A stretch of DNA of 64,000 nt, taken from the NCBI GenBank assembly GCA_002067975.1, contig MVRS01000244.1, positions 1 to 64,000 on the forward strand. The letters run 5' to 3'. The position numbers and the translations under genes are program-made. Every line of letters begins with the position of its first letter. Position 1 is the first letter of the stretch. This document shows, piece by piece, positions 40,083 through 53,665 of the stretch. The notes under the pieces were generated by a model. That model saw nothing but the letters and a program-made list of their open reading frames with translations, was not told the origin of the DNA and made no database searches. Source of the DNA: Syntrophorhabdus sp. PtaU1.Bin058 (GTDB taxonomy: Bacteria; Desulfobacterota; Syntrophorhabdia; Syntrophorhabdales; Syntrophorhabdaceae).

Positions 40083-40156
40083 GGGCCGTTAGCTCAGTCC
40101 GGTAGAGCAGTTGACTCTTAATCAATTGGTCGGAGGTTCGAATCCTCCACGGCCCA
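40083..40156 (+). tRNA. tRNA-Lys (anticodon CTT)
   Basis: A full cloverleaf: acceptor GGGCCGT/ACGGCCC, D arm GCTC...GAGC, anticodon arm GTTGA-CTCTTAA-TCAAT, T arm GGAGG-TTCGAAT-CCTCC, discriminator A. CCA is not encoded. It marks the left edge of an AT-richer island. Confidence 0.97.
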
Positions 40157-40261
40157 TATTCAATTTTTAACAATATCGGCTATATAGTCATTATTTACAA
40201 TTGAAAACAATTCTCTCCCCATGCCGTGCCTTACGCGACACCCTCGAGGAATGTGAATAAT

Positions 40262-40461
40262 GTATCCCGGAACCTTCTTGAGGATGGTCATCGGTGTCGG
40301 ACTCTTCCCCGCAAACACGCTCATACGCTCCAGCGGCTTACATTCGCTCGCGTTCGGCTTCGGAACTTTTGCCTGACGGCAAAAGACCGAGCTTCCTCGC
40401 CTCACGACGGTTTGCTACAGGAAAGTCCGGCGCCGATGACCTGATGACATATCCGGGATAC
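40262..40461. repeat. 200-bp imperfect inverted-repeat element (MITE-like or large RNA hairpin)
   Basis: The left arm has GTATCCCGG (40262-40270), a GGTCATCGG...CGGACT block (40286-40308) and GCAAAC (40311-40316). The right arm has their complements at 40453-40461, 40420-40441 and 40410-40415. The centre has a further perfect hairpin, CTTTTGCC-TGAC-GGCAAAAG (40366-40385). This could be a nonautonomous mobile element or a transcribed structured RNA; no transposase is near. Confidence 0.7.
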
Positions 40462-40636
40462 GCTATTTTCTATGTAATGGGAAAAAATAGGGATATTTCT
40501 GTTAGGTTCGTTGCGTTTTGCAAACACGACCGGAATGATGGAAAGAAATGTCGAAAGAGAATGTGCAAATTGGAGCAAGAGATCAGCAATAACAACGATC
40601 GCAATGGAATGGCGAGTCAGCCGCGCCCTTAAACAT

Positions 40637-40910
40637 CTTTCCGCCTGCCGTAAACAGACATTTTCCGCTTGACATTTGACATCAGCCTGAAGATAATAGA
40701 TTTATTAGAGGGGGTAGCAGTAATGCTCTCGTGGGTTGCAGACACGTGGGTAGGAAAAAGATCGGAAGATTCCTGTAGTATACCTCATGTAATATCAGCA
40801 AAAATCACTCGGAAGCTCAATTTACCCGTTAAAAAGCGGTATCTTTAACCTCCCCCTCTTCGTCTTGATATGTGTTTCAAGAAAGCTAGGTTGGCAGATT
40901 AAGCGTTAGG
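40637..40910 (+). repeat. Promoter-leader repeat, copy A (before the protease operon)
   Basis: This stretch aligns over most of its length with copy B at 44024-44248. It includes the promoter, an identical 20-mer at 40777-40796 (44134-44153 in B), ACCCGTTAAAAAG at 40824-40836 (44161-44173 in B) and AGATTAA...TAGG near the end. Copy A is about 50 nt longer because of internal insertions. Confidence 0.88.
40669..40697 (+). promoter_or_regulatory. Promoter of the protease/Trypco1 operon
   Basis: TTGACA (40669-40674), 17 nt, GATAAT (40692-40697), the same boxes and spacing as in copy B. Transcription from here leaves about a 240-nt untranslated leader. Confidence 0.75.
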
Positions 40911-40945
40911 ACACAGCGAAGAACTTTCTTATTTGGGGGTAATCA

Positions 40946-41866
40946 ATGAATATCGAGAAAAGCACCGGCCCCAGGCTGCTTCCAGATGACTACTCTCTTG
41001 ACAGGTTAGACTCCCACTCCTTTATGGGGAAACTGTTTAGCAGAGCGAGTGAGTATTTGGAAGACAATGAAGCTCTGAAAACATTTTACTGGACTATTCG
41101 TTTGATGTTGGCTTCGCGCCCCATTGTAAGATTCGTGAGGCCAGTCATTGGGTTTAGGTTTTTAGGGTTTGGCTTCCTTGACCCCGAATTGGAAGAGGAC
41201 AACTTTGGTGTTATTGTGTTTGCTACCAATCCCAATTACGGAAAGCCATTTTTTCTTGAACCTATCGAACTTGAAGAAAAATCGTTCCCGGTAGTAGTAC
41301 GTCCGTTTATCGAAATTCCACACTGGCCATCTATCCACCTTTCTCTGGGGAGATGTGGGTGTTGGGCTGAGACCCGAATGTCATCAAACTCTGTTGGTCC
41401 AGGCGGCCTCACTGCGAAACACTGTGTCTCAGGCTTGACAATGGGTTCCAAAGTGCCCCTTACTGATGGTACTTGGGGTACTCTTTTAGATATCGCTCCC
41501 GAAGGTATCGACGCCGCAATAGTAGCCACAGGCGAAACTCCTGGCAGCACAATACTCAAGACGGAGGAGTTTGTCACTCCTTACACAGACGTTGAGTTTG
41601 AAGGTGCTTCAGGCCCGGTGAAGACGAAGATCACGGCCGTTACAGACACTTTCGGTATCCTATCTTCGCCAGTTTTGCCATCGAGGGTAGCACTCGCCAG
41701 AAGCGGTGCGCACGGTGACTCTGGTGCTATAGTTAAAAGTATACCTTTGGGCCGTGCAGTCGGAATCTACATGGGGGCCTATACCGACACTGCCGGGAGA
41801 TATGGCGGTCTGGCACAGACCGCTCATCAGGTAGCGCTAACAATGGATGGGAGGTTTTTGCAATGA
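40946..41866 (+). CDS. Cytoplasmic trypsin-like serine protease
   Basis: A 306-residue protein with the S1 triad by motif: His159 (LTAKHCV), Asp189 (GIDAAIV) and Ser259 (GAHGDSGAIV). There is no signal peptide or clear membrane anchor, so it acts inside the cell, unlike most trypsins. The first 130 residues are an extra N-terminal region without recognised domain. It is followed, with 4-bp overlap, by a Trypco1-like gene; trypsin plus Trypco1 is a pair known from NTP-dependent and kinase-linked bacterial conflict systems. Start ATG follows TTGGGGGTAATCA. Confidence 0.85.
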   Translation: MNIEKSTGPRLLPDDYSLDRLDSHSFMGKLFSRASEYLEDNEALKTFYWTIRLMLASRPIVRFVRPVIGFRFLGFGFLDPELEEDNFGVIVFATNPNYGKPFFLEPIELEEKSFPVVVRPFIEIPHWPSIHLSLGRCGCWAETRMSSNSVGPGGLTAKHCVSGLTMGSKVPLTDGTWGTLLDIAPEGIDAAIVATGETPGSTILKTEEFVTPYTDVEFEGASGPVKTKITAVTDTFGILSSPVLPSRVALARSGAHGDSGAIVKSIPLGRAVGIYMGAYTDTAGRYGGLAQTAHQVALTMDGRFLQ

Positions 41867-42189
41867 ACACAGAGAAACGAAGCAAGAATCAAGTATTGTT
41901 TATAGCTCGCGAGACAGTACCATCAGTTGGCAATGTTGAACTCCACAGATTTAAAGAGAATGGTCTGACTCGCACTCTGAAAGAAGTGAAAGACGATTGG
42001 CGTGTCGTGAGCAAGCAGGTAATTGAATTGGTTGAAGAAACTGAAAGAGAAGCATCTGGGAAAAAGTATCGTTTAGACCAAGTGACTGTGGGGCTCGGAT
42101 TCAACGCTAAAGGCAAGCTCGCATTTCTCGCAGAGGCCGGCGTTGAAGCTTCGGTTACAGTTACCTTCAAGCGCTATGAGTCACCATGA
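41863..42189 (+). CDS. Trypco1-like protease partner
   Basis: A 108-residue protein whose C-terminal half, LDQVTVGLGFNAKGKLAFLA and EASVTVTFKRYE, fits the beta-rich trypsin-co-occurring domain 1. Its ATG overlaps the protease stop (ATGA), so the pair is translationally coupled. Expected role: regulator or substrate adaptor of the protease. Family assignment is from pattern and context, not a profile search. Confidence 0.72.
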   Translation: MNTEKRSKNQVLFIARETVPSVGNVELHRFKENGLTRTLKEVKDDWRVVSKQVIELVEETEREASGKKYRLDQVTVGLGFNAKGKLAFLAEAGVEASVTVTFKRYESP

Positions 42190-42341
42190 CTGCCTCCTTT
42201 GCTTTAGATGTAACGAATGGAGTGTTCTAACAAATCGCTCCAAAGGAGTGAATATCTCAGATATTGCGGTAATAGTGTTGACGAGCATATTGCGTATGCC
42301 CAGATCGTGGCTACGAGGGGAAAATCAACTTCACATGAAAT

Positions 42342-42434
42342 ATGGCTGGCACTAAAATCGAAATGATCCAAACTGCCCAACAAGTGCGCACAGTGGGGGA
42401 GGGGATCATTGCTAATAACATTGGCTCCAACTGA
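42342..42434 (+). CDS. Possible 30-residue peptide
   Basis: ATG to TGA encoding a peptide that starts MAGTKIEMIQTAQQVR and ends IIANNIGSN. Preceded only by a weak AT-rich context. It might be a remnant of a larger gene or a small expressed peptide. Very uncertain. Confidence 0.2.
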   Translation: MAGTKIEMIQTAQQVRTVGEGIIANNIGSN

Positions 42435-42457
42435 TTTCAGTGTTGGGGGGGGAGGTG

Positions 42458-42517
42458 ATGCAATATACAGCTAACGGGCTTCACGATGCACGCAAGGTGG
42501 AACTGCAACAAAAATAA
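42458..42517 (+). CDS. Possible 19-residue peptide
   Basis: A frame MQYTANGLHDARKVELQQK directly after GGGAGGTG. The ribosome-site spacing is only about 2 nt, which is short. It lies just before the RiPP-like precursor and could be a leader peptide or chance. Confidence 0.18.
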   Translation: MQYTANGLHDARKVELQQK

Positions 42518-42534
42518 CAGAGAGGAGGTTCAAT

Positions 42535-42810
42535 ATGAGCGTTGAGGTAAAATCAAATGATATTGATTTCCCACGCGCAGGAACAGCCAAATTAACTAGT
42601 TCGTCGTTGGTCAACGCATTGATTAAGGATCAAGATGCAGCTGTCGGACTCCTGAGGGAATGTTATACGGAATTCAGTCTTGAAACTCTTTCCATTGATT
42701 CTTCCGGCCGTGTTGTAATCGAAAACGAGGGATTTACAAAAGCCCTTCAATCAAAGTTGGCATTACCAACAAGAGGGTTGATAAACGTAATCTGCGGCTT
42801 ATCGTGTTAA
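42535..42810 (+). CDS. RiPP-like precursor peptide with C-terminal CxxxC
   Basis: A 91-residue protein with a strong ribosome site. Leader-like part: helix SLVNALIKDQDAAVGLLREC, then SLETLSIDSSGRVVIENEGF. The last 11 residues after Arg80, GLINVICGLSC, are short, hydrophobic and end with Cys87 and the terminal Cys91. The next gene, 15 nt away, is a radical SAM peptide-maturase type enzyme. Size, leader/core layout and neighbour make this a probable modified-peptide precursor. I do not recognise a named precursor family. Confidence 0.72.
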   Translation: MSVEVKSNDIDFPRAGTAKLTSSSLVNALIKDQDAAVGLLRECYTEFSLETLSIDSSGRVVIENEGFTKALQSKLALPTRGLINVICGLSC

Positions 42811-42825
42811 TCCGCGGTATGCTGG

Positions 42826-43881
42826 ATGATGTGTAACACAAGAATGCGCGAAGAGATTATGGAGGCTCTCAATAGTGAGAGCCTCCACCTTATCATATTT
42901 CCGACAGAACAATGCAACTTGCGTTGTTGGTATTGCTATGAACAGTACCAGATTGGAACAATGCCTGATAATATAATTGCTGGCGTGAAAAGGCTGTTAA
43001 CCAAAAGGTATCAGGGTCTCAAGCAATTAAATATAAGCTGGTTTGGTGGAGAACCTCTTCTTGCAGTAGGTTGCATTAGAGCCATTTCCCAGCATATTCA
43101 TTGGCTCAATTCGCAGTTCCCATCAGTTCAATACCACGCCAATATTACCACAAACGCAACATTGCTTTCTCAAGATCTTTATAACGAACTGTGCATATAT
43201 GGAATTAATCTTTTCCATATAACATTGGATGGCCCAAGATGGATACATGACCGTCTGAGACGCTATCGAGGAGGACAAGGTAGTTTTGACAGGATATGGG
43301 GGAATCTGCTATCCATCAGGAACGAGTCTAAGGGGGGAGCAGGCAAAATTTTGCTTCGGATACATTACTCTATGGACACTTGGCATCATCTTGAGTTTTT
43401 GATTAAGGATATTTGTAGGGAATTTGAGGCCGACAAGAGATTTAAGCTTTATTTCAGGCCTATACAGCGTTTGTCAGATAAGTGCAATCCTGCGTTGCTA
43501 TCATTTCCGAAAAAGAGACAGGCGGAGATTGAAAGCTCTCTCAGAGGTTTCATGGCAGCATCTGAGATGGAGGAAGTGCTTCCCGCAAATGAAAATTCCA
43601 TTTGTTATGCCGCCGCAGCAAATTCACTCGGTGTTCGTTCAAATGGCACATTATGTAAATGTACGGTTGCTCTGGATAAACCCATAAATAACATTGGCAG
43701 AATTGATTCAGATGGTACTTTAGTAATAAATCAAATGAGATGGCGTCTTTGGCTTCATGGATTAAGCACAGGAGATCAAAAATCTCTGGTGTGCCCATTA
43801 AGAGCTATGTTGAATGGTTTTGCGGACAACTGGGCGAAAGTAGAAAACGAAGAACTCTCCAAGCTATTAAATTCGCAATAA
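42826..43881 (+). CDS. Radical SAM peptide maturase with SPASM/Twitch-like tail
   Basis: A 351-residue radical SAM enzyme. The 4Fe-4S site is Cys30, Cys34 and Cys37 in EQCNLRCWYCYE, with ISWFGGEPLL as the SAM-binding GGE region. The C-terminal part has ICYAAAANSLGVRSNGTLCK followed by Cys, which fits the CX9-15GX4C start of SPASM/Twitch domains, plus one later Cys (VCPLRAM), so the auxiliary-cluster domain seems reduced. It probably modifies the small peptide encoded 15 nt upstream. No transporter or leader-binding PqqD-like domain is seen. Confidence 0.85.
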   Translation: MMCNTRMREEIMEALNSESLHLIIFPTEQCNLRCWYCYEQYQIGTMPDNIIAGVKRLLTKRYQGLKQLNISWFGGEPLLAVGCIRAISQHIHWLNSQFPSVQYHANITTNATLLSQDLYNELCIYGINLFHITLDGPRWIHDRLRRYRGGQGSFDRIWGNLLSIRNESKGGAGKILLRIHYSMDTWHHLEFLIKDICREFEADKRFKLYFRPIQRLSDKCNPALLSFPKKRQAEIESSLRGFMAASEMEEVLPANENSICYAAAANSLGVRSNGTLCKCTVALDKPINNIGRIDSDGTLVINQMRWRLWLHGLSTGDQKSLVCPLRAMLNGFADNWAKVENEELSKLLNSQ

Positions 43882-44023
43882 AACATGTGTTTAATAAGGT
43901 TAACCAATAGAAAAACTTATCATTCTATATTTTTCATCGTGACGGCCATAGACTAACACAACAATTATAGGTGAAATTCTTAATGTAATTACCCTACCCT
44001 GCCTACTCCGCGTCCTCGAGCGC

Positions 44024-44248
44024 CTTTCTACCAGCCTTAATCAAATATTTTCCGCTTGACATTGGACAACAGCCTGAGGATAATGGATTTATTGGAGTTG
44101 GAGGGGGTTGCAGTGCTCTCGGAAGTTCCCGGCAGTATACCTCATGTAATATCGGTATGCACCCGTTAAAAAGTTGCATTGCAAGTCTTTTCTTTAGTTT
44201 ATATATGTTGTTTTAAGAAAAAACCGGGTTAATAGATTAAATGCTAGG
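44024..44248 (+). repeat. Promoter-leader repeat, copy B (before the kinase gene)
   Basis: Homologous to 40637-40910 (see copy A). The conservation extends well beyond the promoter boxes into the untranslated leader, so the RNA itself may be selected. The two copies are direct repeats flanking the protease, peptide and maturase genes. Confidence 0.88.
44056..44084 (+). promoter_or_regulatory. Promoter of the Ser/Thr kinase gene
   Basis: TTGACA (44056-44061), 17 nt, GATAAT (44079-44084), identical boxes to the protease-operon promoter. The leader is about 190 nt. Confidence 0.75.
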
Positions 44249-44283
44249 TTGCACATATAGACTTTCCACAAAAGGATAATTCC

Positions 44284-45591
44284 ATGAGGGTAATACGAAG
44301 AATTGATCGTGGCGGTTTTGGCTTCGTGGAGGAAGTGGAGACGTCTCAGGAAGACCGTGTTGCACGAAAAACGTTCGACCCTCTAACAAGAGACCCAGTA
44401 GAATTATCGGCCCTAAGGCGTCGGTTTGAACGCGAGGTTCGAATCCAATCGGCTATTCGTCATTCTAACATCATGCCGGTGCTTGAGGCTGGTCTTAGCG
44501 ATTCACCACCTTGGTTTCTTATGCCACTTGCCTCTATGTCCCTTGAAGGAAAACTCCAAGATGATCATCGCAACAGTAGGTTCGACACCCAACCATGGCC
44601 AGATATTCTTGCTGCAGCTGAAGAACTTCATCGACTAGGGTATGTCCATCGGGACTTGAAGCCCGCGAACATCCTTTTGGTTCAGAACAAATGGGTCATT
44701 GCTGATTTCGGTCTCATCTTGCCGACTATGCGTGACACCACCATCTTAACGGGGTCAAGTTCTGCCTATGGTTCACGTAACTACACTGCTCCCGAGCAAA
44801 CAACTGACTTCCGCAACACCCCTGAACAGGCAGATATCTACGCACTTGGCTGTATTCTTCACGACGCCACCGATCCAACTCCTACACGTATCCCATTTGC
44901 CCAGATTCGCACAGGAGGTATTTACGGTCCTTTGCTTGAGAAGTGCACGGAAGTCGACCCCCGGAGACGTTTTCCAACGATAGCCGCTCTCCGTGCCGCA
45001 CTATTCGACTTGTGGAGAACTTCGTCTTTCCCTCCTCCTCCTGTAGATGACGCAGCAATCTTACAACACGTTCTGGACAATCCCGAATCGCCTGAGGCAT
45101 GGAGACGGTTTCTGAAGTATGTCGAGAACCTCCCTGCCAATAGTCACGATCTTCTATTGCGAGCGATAAATTCAGATTTATTGTTACAGCTCAACACGCT
45201 AGATAATGTTTTGTTCGGGCGTCTCGTAACACTCCTATGCCAATGGGCAGGTGGGAACGCATTTGAATGGGAATATTGTGATGTAGTCGGTGACCGATTG
45301 CTCGATGTCTACAGAGTCGGACCTGTTCGCTTACGATGCGACATCGTTCTCGCAGCTTTGAAGCTTGCCGTCTCACATAATCGTTGGCACGTTATGAGAC
45401 AAGCTGGTGGTATGCTCGGTACAGCTGCTGACAACGGTCTTGTGGATCGTTTGCTTATTGAAATTTCGTTAGACCCAACAATCGAGAATAGACTACGCCA
45501 AATCGAAAGTATCATCCACTGGCCGCGTGAACACTGGCATGAGCGCATTGCGAACTTCCTTGAGGAAAGCTTAGCTACCACACAGATCTAG
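44284..45591 (+). CDS. Serine/threonine protein kinase with helical C-terminal region
   Basis: A 435-residue Hanks-type kinase. Gly-rich loop 9-14 (RGGFGFV), Lys29 (VARKTF), catalytic HRDLKPANI (122-130), DFG 141-143 and TAPEQ (168-172) are all intact, so it should be active. After the kinase domain (about 1-245) comes an Ala/Leu-rich helical region of about 170 residues of unknown fold. There is no transmembrane helix or PASTA domain, so it is not a cell-wall sensor. The same duplicated promoter as the protease operon suggests joint regulation; soluble kinases of this kind occur in phage-defence modules. Confidence 0.9.
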   Translation: MRVIRRIDRGGFGFVEEVETSQEDRVARKTFDPLTRDPVELSALRRRFEREVRIQSAIRHSNIMPVLEAGLSDSPPWFLMPLASMSLEGKLQDDHRNSRFDTQPWPDILAAAEELHRLGYVHRDLKPANILLVQNKWVIADFGLILPTMRDTTILTGSSSAYGSRNYTAPEQTTDFRNTPEQADIYALGCILHDATDPTPTRIPFAQIRTGGIYGPLLEKCTEVDPRRRFPTIAALRAALFDLWRTSSFPPPPVDDAAILQHVLDNPESPEAWRRFLKYVENLPANSHDLLLRAINSDLLLQLNTLDNVLFGRLVTLLCQWAGGNAFEWEYCDVVGDRLLDVYRVGPVRLRCDIVLAALKLAVSHNRWHVMRQAGGMLGTAADNGLVDRLLIEISLDPTIENRLRQIESIIHWPREHWHERIANFLEESLATTQI

Positions 45592-45743: not shown

Positions 45744-47039
45744 ATGCAAACGCAATTATCACTATTTGAAAATGATATGAAGACAAGGTCCGACGTTAAG
45801 GTGTCGAGGTCAGGCACTTTCCTTGATAATATGGCGCTTCCTATTCATCGGTGGTTTCGCTATTCAGCCGGTTTTGCAGCCCAATGGGTTGAGCAGGTCT
45901 TGGCCGGATGGGGAATAACAAAAGAACAGATTGTCCTTGACCCGTTCGCAGGTTCCGGTACAGTATCTGTCGTTTGTGATACCATGGGTATTCCAAGTAT
46001 AGGAGTCGAAGCACATTCTTTAGTATCGAGAATATTAAAGGCCAAGCTGCTTTGGCCAACACCTCCCCAACATGTCGTTGAATTTGCTTCTAAAGTCTTA
46101 AAACGAGCCCAAAACGAAAGACCTCATACAACGACGTTCCCTCCTCTGCTTGAACGAAGCTATGAACCGAAAGCCCTTGCGTCTCTTAATGCATTGAAGT
46201 CTTCATGGCTGTCCCTTCGGGATGAGTCCCCAGAATCAGAATTGGTCTGGTTAGCATTAACGGCAATTCTTCGTTCAACTTCCACGGCTGGAACTGCACA
46301 GTGGCAGTACATCCTGCCTAACAAAACAAAAAAACATATCATTGAACCATTCTTCGCTTTTCAGCAACAAATTAGAATTATCAAGGCAGATTTACGGTGG
46401 ATGCAAGCACGAGCCGACCGATCATGCGCTGATATTATTGCAGGGGATGCCCGAGCGTTTGCTGGCATCGTCTCGAGGAAGGTGGATGCTGTAATTACTT
46501 CTCCGCCATATGCAAATAATTACGACTATGCAGACGCATTACGTCTTGAGATGACGTTTTGGGGTGATGTGAATGGATGGGGAGACATCCATCACGCAGT
46601 AAGGCGACATCTTATCGTTTCATCATCCCAGCATTCGTCACGCGAAAGACTCCTCCTTGAAGACCTACTTGCTTTGGAAGCTGTTGCCCCTATTCGTAGT
46701 GAGCTGGCGCAAGTTGTCCATGAATTGGCAGCTGTGCGCGAAAACCACGGGGGCAAGAAGCATTATCATACCATGATTGCAGCCTATTGCCGCGACATCA
46801 GTCTTACTCTGCAACAACTACAACGTGTCTGTAAGCCAGGCTCTCGAATGTGTTGGGTCATTGGCGATTCCGCCCCATACGGTGTATATTGCCCGATTGA
46901 AAGATGGATTGCCGAACTTGCAATAGCAGCTGGTTTTAAAAATTATAGTTTCGACAAACTACGAGATCGAAATATTAAATGGAAGAATAGAAAACATAGG
47001 GTCCCGCTTAAAGAAGGACTACTTTGGATTGAGGGGTAG
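45744..47039 (+). CDS. DNA methyltransferase (N4-cytosine/N6-adenine type)
   Basis: A 431-residue methylase. The AdoMet site DPFAGSGT (66-73) precedes the catalytic motif SPPYANNYDYAD (253-264), and a late GDSAPYG segment follows. SPPY is common in N4-cytosine and some N6-adenine enzymes, so the modified base is left open. The restriction-like partner starts 3 nt after its stop. The target sequence is unknown. Confidence 0.88.
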   Translation: MQTQLSLFENDMKTRSDVKVSRSGTFLDNMALPIHRWFRYSAGFAAQWVEQVLAGWGITKEQIVLDPFAGSGTVSVVCDTMGIPSIGVEAHSLVSRILKAKLLWPTPPQHVVEFASKVLKRAQNERPHTTTFPPLLERSYEPKALASLNALKSSWLSLRDESPESELVWLALTAILRSTSTAGTAQWQYILPNKTKKHIIEPFFAFQQQIRIIKADLRWMQARADRSCADIIAGDARAFAGIVSRKVDAVITSPPYANNYDYADALRLEMTFWGDVNGWGDIHHAVRRHLIVSSSQHSSRERLLLEDLLALEAVAPIRSELAQVVHELAAVRENHGGKKHYHTMIAAYCRDISLTLQQLQRVCKPGSRMCWVIGDSAPYGVYCPIERWIAELAIAAGFKNYSFDKLRDRNIKWKNRKHRVPLKEGLLWIEG

Positions 47040-47042
47040 GAT

Positions 47043-47912
47043 ATGGCAGAATCACCCGCACATAGATTCGGACAGGTCATTGGAGAATTACTTGAAACAG
47101 TCGTCCTTCCACAACTTGAAACATTTTGTAAAAACCAAGGTCTTTATCTTGATCATCAGAAAAAAAACAGACCAGCCAGAACCGGCAAAAGGGTTTCTTG
47201 GACTGACCAATATGGAAATGTTCATGATCTTGATTTTGTGATCGAGAGAGAAGGCACGGATCATCAGATTGGTAGTCCGGTTGCCTTTATTGAAAGCGCA
47301 TGGCGCAGATATACAAAACATTCACGGAATAAGGCTCAGGAAATCCAAGGAGCAATTCTACCTCTCGCCGAAAAATACCAATGGAACAACCCATTTCTCG
47401 GAACAGTGCTGGCGGGGGTGTTTACCGAAGGATCGCTAGAACAACTACGTTCGCTTGGATTCCAGGTCCTCTATTTTCCATACGAGTCACTCGTTGCAGC
47501 ATTTGGGTCGGAAGGGATCGATATAGCATTTGACGAAAGCACGGCAGATGACGTATTTAGGCAAACAACGAATCGGATAGCACGTGCCCCAAAGAGGCAA
47601 ATGGACAGAATAAGGTCGCATCTTATTGCGGCCAACCAACATGTGATTAATAGTTTTTTTATGGCTTTAAGGCAGAGACTGGGTAGGCACATTACCCGTA
47701 TAGTTGTGATCCCCCTTTACGGACGTATAAACGAGTTCGCTACAATAGAAGCCGCGCTTCGATTCCTCGATGGCCATATGATATACGAAGGCTCTGGAGA
47801 ATTCCGAAAGTATGAAATTCGCATTGAGTTTTCAAATGGTGACAAGGTTGAAGCTTCATTAGAGGCCAAAGACAAAGTAAAGGATTTTTTAGATTTTGTT
47901 GCAAGACAATAA
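47043..47912 (+). CDS. Probable restriction endonuclease partner
   Basis: A 289-residue protein immediately behind the methylase. GNVHDLDFVIERE followed by PVAFIESAWRRYTKHSRNKAQEIQG gives the D...ExxW/R arrangement of a PD-(D/E)XK-like nuclease core (about residues 58-105). The C-terminal 100 residues show no recognised domain. Nuclease function rests on this motif and on the gene pair; it could be a related restriction-specific protein. Confidence 0.68.
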   Translation: MAESPAHRFGQVIGELLETVVLPQLETFCKNQGLYLDHQKKNRPARTGKRVSWTDQYGNVHDLDFVIEREGTDHQIGSPVAFIESAWRRYTKHSRNKAQEIQGAILPLAEKYQWNNPFLGTVLAGVFTEGSLEQLRSLGFQVLYFPYESLVAAFGSEGIDIAFDESTADDVFRQTTNRIARAPKRQMDRIRSHLIAANQHVINSFFMALRQRLGRHITRIVVIPLYGRINEFATIEAALRFLDGHMIYEGSGEFRKYEIRIEFSNGDKVEASLEAKDKVKDFLDFVARQ

Positions 47913-48844: not shown

Positions 48845-49438
48845 ATGAATAAACAATTCTATACCGTATTTGGATACCTTACTTCGGCCTTCGCATGCAT
48901 GGAAGGTGATTTGCGGTTTCTTGTGGCAGGCATCGCGTTTGGTAACGATTCAATTACTACTTCGGCCTTTATGGATAGCTCACAGTTGATTGACAATCTC
49001 AGAATTTTGAGAAAACTATCTCGACAGTATTGGGGCGCTGAGTCTCAATTCGCTGAAGTGATTGATAGCATTGAACAGATTCGCTCTACGAGAAACCTTT
49101 TTATTCATGGGTTGTGGACGCCGGGCAAGTTCGGAGAGACAAATGGTGTTGCATCTGTACAGGACCTCAAAACCAGTTTTGAAAGCAGCTCGACTATGCG
49201 GGAATGGAGACACGGTCAAACCATGGATTTCTCATTGGACGATTTCCGTATTCTCTTGGCAGATGTAAATGAAGCTATTGATAAAATTGCCAAGCTTCGT
49301 GAGTGGCTCGAGAAACATGAAGGTATTGAGTTTGGATACATAGGCTTCACCAGCAAACTCAAGCCGGTGTCTATTCGTATTGATTCCGGTGACAAGTTTG
49401 AGAAAAGCCTGCCAGCGGAAATAGAAGAAGAAACCTAA
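48845..49438 (+). CDS. Helical protein with HEPN-like RxxxxH motif
   Basis: A 197-residue, mainly alpha-helical protein. RSTRNLFIHGLW (about 84-95) contains Arg-x4-His as in HEPN ribonucleases, preceded by a long helix (IDSIEQI), with more helices after it (DDFRILLADVNEAIDKIAKL). HEPN proteins are RNases or helical partners in conflict systems. The motif is short, so the family call is tentative. Confidence 0.55.
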   Translation: MNKQFYTVFGYLTSAFACMEGDLRFLVAGIAFGNDSITTSAFMDSSQLIDNLRILRKLSRQYWGAESQFAEVIDSIEQIRSTRNLFIHGLWTPGKFGETNGVASVQDLKTSFESSSTMREWRHGQTMDFSLDDFRILLADVNEAIDKIAKLREWLEKHEGIEFGYIGFTSKLKPVSIRIDSGDKFEKSLPAEIEEET

Positions 49439-49705: not shown

Positions 49706-49891
49706 ATGGCAAGAAGCATATTGAAGGCAAAACCACAGGTGATAATGAAAGACGGCAGGCCAAGCGCCGTAATCATTGAAATCAACGACTACCGTGCATT
49801 GCTTGAAAGGCTTGAGGACAAAGAAGACCTTGCAGACCTTGAAAAAATACGTATGGGTGGTGTGCGGACAAGGAAGGCGGATGGGTTTTAA
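49706..49891 (+). CDS. Orphan Phd/YefM-type antitoxin
   Basis: A 61-residue protein: ARSILKAKPQVIMKDGRPSAVIIEINDYRALLERLED is the prevent-host-death fold in short form. No toxin gene follows; the next gene is modB on the opposite strand with a 4-bp overlap at the ends. Either a solitary regulator or a decayed toxin-antitoxin pair. Confidence 0.72.
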   Translation: MARSILKAKPQVIMKDGRPSAVIIEINDYRALLERLEDKEDLADLEKIRMGGVRTRKADGF

Positions 49892-52799: not shown

Positions 52800-53032
52800 T
52801 CATATTTCGATTAATTATATTAATATCATATAGTTATGCAGTATCAGGATTTTCCTTCCACGAAACCGGTTGTGGTGAATAATGTATCTGTTGCGGGGGG
52901 GGGTATTACCGGGAGGGAATAATCCCCGATATGTCTTACTAAGGCCTGAGGACTTTATGTATTTATACTTTGCGTAAAGGGCGGGGGTAAATATACAACC
53001 CGGGGGTTATGGTAGATGTGTTGCAGGTTTTT

Positions 53033-53359
53033 TTATCCGAAGTGCTTGTGAAACGTCTTTTCGATTGCGTACCGGACGTCCTCACGGAACCGTTCATATT
53101 GTTTTAAGAAGGCTTTTCCTGCCACGGTGAGGTTGGACCCGCCGCCGGATACCCCGCCGACCCTTCTTTCGATCACGTCGAATCCAAGCTTTTTCTCACA
53201 ATCGTTCAGGACGTTCCAGGCCTTCTGGTAAGACATTTCCAGGTTCATGGCTGCCATATGCAGGGATCCCGTCTGCTCAATCCCCCTCAGGAGTTGGTAT
53301 GGACCTTCACCGAACGCCTTTCCTTCATTCTCAAGCCATACTTTATAGGCTACTTTCAT
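53033..53359 (-). CDS. modE: ModE-type winged-helix regulator, DNA-binding domain only
   Basis: A 108-residue protein equal to the N-terminal half of ModE: LLRGIEQTGSLHMAAMNLEM and SYQKAWNVLNDCEKKLG (HTH), then GGVSGGGSNLTVAGKAFLKQYE (wing). The Mop domains that bind molybdate in full ModE are missing and are found in the separate protein at 52242-52664. It lies divergent from the TonB receptor gene and both carry ModE-like boxes in front or nearby. Confidence 0.9.
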   Translation of the reverse strand: MKVAYKVWLENEGKAFGEGPYQLLRGIEQTGSLHMAAMNLEMSYQKAWNVLNDCEKKLGFDVIERRVGGVSGGGSNLTVAGKAFLKQYERFREDVRYAIEKTFHKHFG

Positions 53360-53380
53360 TCTAACCCCTTATATTAGGGT

Positions 53381-53409
53381 ATTGTAATCAATAGTATTAA
53401 CCATGTCAA
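53381..53409 (-). promoter_or_regulatory. Promoter of modE
   Basis: On the minus strand TTGACA (53409-53404), 17 nt, TACAAT (53386-53381), 22 nt before the ATG. A small inverted repeat (CTAACCC...TTAGGGT, 53361-53380) lies between the promoter and ATG. Confidence 0.72.
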
Positions 53410-53458
53410 CCGGTAGATTCAAATAATTTCCTTGCCTTAACTTAGTGAAAAAAAATAC

Positions 53459-53488
53459 TTGACCTACCGTTATACTAAATGATATATA
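53459..53488 (+). promoter_or_regulatory. Promoter candidate of the TonB-receptor operon
   Basis: TTGACC (53459-53464), 18 nt, TATATA (53483-53488), overlapped by the first ModE-like box. A leader of about 170 nt follows, containing two copies of GGATTATACCT (near 53561 and 53594). Confidence 0.5.
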
Positions 53489-53493
53489 ACTCA
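53466..53493. promoter_or_regulatory. ModE-box-like site 1 before the TonB receptor
   Basis: ACCGTTATACT, 6 nt, TATATAACTCA: 8 of 11 matches in each half to the ModE consensus, in correct spacing. It overlaps the promoter candidate. Confidence 0.65.
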
Positions 53494-53519
53494 CGTTATA
53501 TAATAAATAAAATAACGAT
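53492..53519. promoter_or_regulatory. ModE-box-like site 2 before the TonB receptor
   Basis: CACGTTATATA, 6 nt, AAAATAACGAT: 9 of 11 matches in each half. It directly abuts site 1, so two dimers could bind side by side. Confidence 0.72.
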
Positions 53520-53665
53520 GAATTTATTAGATAAAAGCTGCAGCATATAGTTGATGGCAGCGGGATTATACCTATAATCGCTTTGGGATGAAAGGATTAT
53601 ACCTTTATAGATAAGTATGTATAACGAAATACTTAAAAGAATTAAAAAAGATTAAGGAGGGAGAT

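Follow-up and report, generated by a model that had tools for sequence, protein, structure and literature searches.

The window analysed here is a stretch of 64,000 nucleotides from Syntrophorhabdus sp. PtaU1.Bin058. It carries a tRNA-Lys (CTT) gene on the forward strand (40083-40156), which was found by ARAGORN and Rfam and is alone in reaching its Rfam family cut-off. This gene is an integration hotspot and forms the left edge of an island. To its right, five ORFs lie on the forward strand within 4.7 kb (40946-45591); the ORF list and ARAGORN thus bear out the first-pass annotation, which had placed five ORFs beside a tRNA gene. In order, they encode a predicted trypsin-like serine protease (40946-41863), a Pepco-domain protein (41863-42189), a RiPP precursor peptide (42535-42810), a radical SAM/SPASM peptide maturase (42826-43881) and a soluble Ser/Thr protein kinase (44284-45591). 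Spacing is tight inside the two pairs, with overlapping protease and Pepco genes and 15 bp between peptide and maturase genes, and wide between units, with 345 bp from Pepco to peptide and 402 bp from maturase to kinase. A restriction-modification pair on the same strand lies directly 3' of the kinase gene: a type II DNA methyltransferase (45744-47039; PADLOC profile PDLC03306, 2e-117) and a type II restriction endonuclease (47043-47912; PADLOC profile PDLC03525, 1.7e-63).

In a comparison with four congeners and another genome of the family, synteny over the ATP synthase operon breaks off where the tRNA-Lys gene stops (40156-40177). In two of these relatives (L139 and L141), integrase genes adjoin the same tRNA-Lys gene, and two of the relatives compared have extra tRNA 3'-end fragments at a distance of 7 to 9 kb. 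Furthermore, positions 53018-53535 of the window correspond to the sequence that directly follows the tRNA gene in one congener (L137). Therefore, the inserted material begins at 40157 and ends at some point before 53018. Among the nine island proteins scanned, none matched an integrase profile, and the window holds neither a second att site nor a copy of the tRNA 3' end. The five genes occupy the tRNA-proximal end of a decayed, putative defence/accessory island at a tRNA-Lys integration hotspot. This island is modular and, in our best reading, was built from independently acquired modules: protease with Pepco, peptide with radical SAM enzyme, kinase, and restriction-modification. Further to the right, a protein of 197 aa (48845-49438) that has no Pfam match contains RNLFIH, which resembles the HEPN RNase motif RxxxxH, and a Phd/YefM-like antitoxin scoring 25.3 bits, under the cut-off, is encoded at 49706-49891 with no evident toxin adjoining.

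The predicted protease has 306 aa and, by eye, no obvious signal peptide. Its motifs occur in order and with the usual spacing, namely TAKHC with His159, then Asp189 and GDSG with Ser259, and in this respect the trypsin-like identity proposed by the first-pass annotation stands; however, no match was obtained to trypsin families in Pfam or NCBIfam or, at the sequence level, to PDB chains. The AlphaFold model, computed from the single sequence without relatives, is uninformative (pLDDT 31). Since no profile, solved structure or usable model supports it, the trypsin-like call rests on the motifs. The motif pair is rare, being present in one of 92 comparison loci (24,324 ORFs), and searches of 297 genomes of the phylum, of plasmids, of phages and of viral contigs returned no relatives of the protease.

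The adjoining protein of 108 aa had been taken for a Trypco1-like protein. The profile search did not uphold this name: Trypco1 (PF19493) scores 23.2 bits (E=1.1e-4), below its curated cut-off of 24.6, whereas Pepco (PF24393) reaches 41.8 bits over residues 40-104, against a curated cut-off of 27. The first-pass annotation had therefore named a neighbouring family, and the protein would be at most a distant relative of Trypco1. The coupling of the protease to a small partner, also proposed, fared better: the start of the Pepco gene overlaps the stop of the protease gene by a few bases, and this overlap together with the Pepco match supports a predicted functional pair. At locus L112, another Pepco gene over the cut-off has a 4-bp overlap with a gene that encodes a HELGH motif and has no Pfam match, an arrangement that would fit Pepco proteins as peptidase partners.

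The kinase (435 aa) matches PF00069 over the cut-off with 85.4 bits and keeps its catalytic motifs (HRDLKPAN at 122, IADFG at 139), so its earlier description as intact is confirmed. One relative of its C-terminal region of 240 aa was found, in an Acinetobacter plasmid kinase with a PP2C phosphatase, and none in the phylum. The whole draft genome of 3.4 Mb contains two kinase matches.

Protease and kinase genes are further connected by what precedes them, a feature that had escaped the first-pass annotation, as had the division into units and the restriction-modification pair. A repeat search found two homologous forward-strand regions of about 300 bp, one upstream of the protease gene (40621-40945, with a promoter at 40669-40697 and a long 5' leader) and one upstream of the kinase gene (44008-44283, with a promoter at 44056-44084). 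Their best blocks are 80-89% identical, the similarity extends towards the start codons, and both carry identical promoter hexamers, TTGACA-17-GATAAT. A search of the genome gave one further copy (79%, E=2e-40), at 6298-6480 of contig 178 (L121). The promoter pattern occurs at exactly three sites in the draft genome, against none for the backward-pattern control, and at none in 59 other genomes. Moreover, conservation is higher in the promoter core, at 34 of 42 columns, than elsewhere, at 46 of 83 (Fisher p=0.006). Across all predictions, promoter and terminator scans were at chance level (18 promoter sites for 17.7 expected, 10 terminators for 8.9), and weight was therefore given to the repeated promoter site only. 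The leader RNA folds no better than its shuffles (z 0.04 to 1.47). Each leader copy also contains, after a G-rich Shine-Dalgarno-like stretch, a short ORF in a kept frame, of 41 codons (start 40723), 18 codons (44113) and 38 codons (L121:6358). Codon changes in this ORF, 15 of them non-synonymous and 1 synonymous, led us to reject a conserved peptide.

The copy on contig 178 is followed, after 187 bp, by a caspase-domain gene (PF00656, 105.6 bits), one of two caspase matches in the genome. In 14 stretches of other genomes that carry caspase relatives, neither protease/Pepco nor kinase genes adjoin them. The closest relative (70%, L176:4238-10465) has a second caspase adjoining and a DUF900 alpha/beta hydrolase nearby, an arrangement that resembles described caspase-hydrolase conflict pairs.

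The common upstream promoter region lends independent support to a predicted link between protease and kinase. Since copies of promoter and leader precede the protease/Pepco genes, the kinase gene and the caspase gene, a small regulon is most likely, and these hints point to a putative common switch for suspected defence genes. Hence, the reading that we favour, and consider reasonably probable, is that of separate modules at a tRNA island, among which protease/Pepco and kinase, together with the distant caspase, are placed on a common promoter region. Caution is required, as the pairing of this promoter region with such gene functions was a post hoc observation and duplication alone is no proof of common control. 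Indeed, it is possible, if on the unlikely side, that the locus is a plain defence island where unrelated cassettes have gathered at a tRNA hotspot and where the upstream likeness is left over from a promoter duplication, with no common control. The integrases at the same hotspot in relatives, the adjoining restriction-modification pair and the confinement of the upstream element to this genome would all agree with such an origin; it accounts less well for the sole distant third copy standing before one of only two caspase genes in the genome, and for constraint that is concentrated in the promoter core.

The peptide and its maturase stand apart from this putative regulon, as the shared upstream region is missing before the peptide gene; a separate promoter-like site precedes the pair on the forward strand (42330-42358, 10/12), which is weak evidence. 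The first-pass annotation had described a peptide of 91 residues ending in CxxxC beside a radical SAM maturase, and both are there: the peptide has the leader motif IDSSGRVVIEN, the core NVICGLSC and thus a CGLSC end, and the maturase (351 aa) passes its Pfam cut-off, with CxxxCxxC at Cys30/34/37 and further cysteines at 260, 277, 279 and 323. Together with a common leader in related loci, CxxxCxxC and the SPASM-type cysteines identify a RiPP maturase with its adjoining precursor. Relatives of the maturase at 36-40% are carried by plasmids of Streptomyces, Sinorhizobium and Deinococcus. A first genome-wide scan with the maturase as sole query confirmed no relatives; a scan of the genome collection with an alignment of the plasmid relatives gave 80 loci, from cyanobacteria, planctomycetes, actinobacteria, Bacteroidota, proteobacteria and others. 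Related loci of the pair number 92 over many phyla and plasmids, and in 59 of them an iterated precursor profile recognises a precursor with the common leader next to the maturase. With the peptide alone as query, viral contigs and plasmids returned nothing.

The leader motif of this precursor family is [I/V]xxDxxG[R/K][V/I][V/I]IxxP. The closest full-length relatives, from Nostoc, a planctomycete, Winogradskyella and Tenacibaculum, share Asn84, Cys87, Gly88 and Cys91 with the peptide in the alignment. Across the precursor group, N-terminal and C-terminal halves resemble each other beyond shuffles (0/200), and the leader therefore looks duplicated, a feature that is not visible in the peptide of the window alone. 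Several loci (L019, L037, L039, L062, L080, L086, L103) have two precursors per maturase, whose Cys-containing cores differ in several cases. Relatives of the maturase also occur in 13 viral-database contigs (L145-L157), with recognisable precursors in five of them (L145, L146, L147, L148 and L151). On two Deinococcus plasmids (L022 and L023), precursor and maturase lie close together on opposite strands; L023 encodes lantibiotic dehydratases too, and L022 has hypothetical genes at similar positions.

The distribution of this pair bears on the proposal, made by the first-pass annotation, that all five genes form one conflict system in which the kinase senses a signal and activates the Pepco-bound protease, which cuts the modified peptide after Arg80 and releases a product of 11 residues. 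Gene order, a common strand, a span of 4.7 kb and the upstream region common to protease and kinase speak for such a system, as does Arg80-Gly81, which is present in the peptide just before the modified-looking core. However, this Arg-Gly is absent from the relatives, where other residues precede the core. Moreover, no homologue of the protease or of Pepco occurs within the flanks examined of any of the 92 loci of the pair, a kinase is found in three, 2.5 to 6 kb away, and the peptide gene does not share the upstream region. The check set beforehand for a single system, its recurrence in other genomes, yielded no genome with the full set, and the linear route from kinase to peptide is not supported for a pair that occurs without this protease or Pepco in 92 loci. 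Altogether, we regard this proposal as very improbable. Peptide and maturase are an independent two-gene RiPP module, best read as a bystander in the island. Even less credible is the upstream repeat being a MITE-like mobile element inserted by chance before three genes and donating a promoter. Three dispersed copies, one of them on a distant contig, would suit such an element; against it, the copies have no inverted repeats at their termini, where the longest exact match is 6 bases, and no common sharp ends, and all lie upstream of genes in gene orientation.

In the favoured reading of separate modules with a common promoter region, a stress or invasion signal would act at the TTGACA/GATAAT promoter or at the leader of 200-250 nt, and the three units (protease/Pepco, kinase and caspase) would be induced together by this common signal. 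Pepco may hold the protease and the kinase may tune one or more partners, so that kinase and Pepco together would gate both proteases. The activity of the freed protease and of the caspase would then damage the cell, and the infected or stressed cell would stop growing. These gating steps are suggested because trypsin, caspase and kinase effectors recur among surveyed conflict systems (PMC7159879). The RiPP pair would act on its own: directed by the I-D-x-x-G-R-V-V-I leader, the maturase would modify the C-terminal N-x-x-C-G-x-x-C core, probably by Cys-derived cross-links. The analysis shows the modular structure, the hotspot, the homologous promoter regions at three places of the draft genome and the independence of the RiPP pair; co-expression, protease activity, a defence role and the peptide chemistry are inferred. 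That the three loci make up a single pathway of proteolytic cell suicide, brought together through promoter capture and not operon linkage, is a speculative extension that we think unlikely.

Clustering of genes is the usual sign by which protease-based conflict systems of bacteria are recognised. In this genome, only the common promoter region points to the link between protease, kinase and caspase, and promoter sharing suggests a way of finding defence pathways with scattered parts. Furthermore, the precursor family is broad across phyla and unnamed in the curated libraries searched; its leader motif is clear, its Cys-containing cores vary, and it is a ready target for RiPP discovery.

No described system that joins all these parts was found in the open-licence literature, and the parts have separate counterparts. 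In conflict systems, trypsin and caspase peptidases and kinases are recurrent effectors, and trypsin genes come with dedicated small partners, as far as the available text of the survey goes (eLife 2020, PMC7159879). The ternary VMAP (MoxR-vWA) systems with trypsin-Trypco1/Trypco2 are matched here by a predicted trypsin-like gene beside a small Trypco/Pepco-type partner, and their repertoire of effectors includes kinases and caspases as well; however, the partner is Pepco and not Trypco1, and that text (PMC7159879) describes no promoter common with a caspase gene. The nine island proteins scanned had no match to MoxR, vWA or VMAP families. The maturase is near TIGR04463 and the geopeptide maturase TIGR04280, with which it shares the maturase domain, a SPASM-type C-terminus and an adjoining Cys-containing precursor; it differs from them in scoring 134 bits on TIGR04463, for an equivalog cut-off of 525, in lacking the N-terminal 76 profile positions, and in having a precursor family with no model in Pfam or NCBIfam. 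The best kinase-domain profile in PADLOC is that of the single-gene defence kinase PD-T4-6 (2.5e-31), and the likeness is confined to the kinase domain. Finally, although the scanned island proteins and the window provide neither integrase nor second att site, the methyltransferase and endonuclease directly downstream of the kinase gene resemble the type II restriction-modification systems found at tRNA hotspots.
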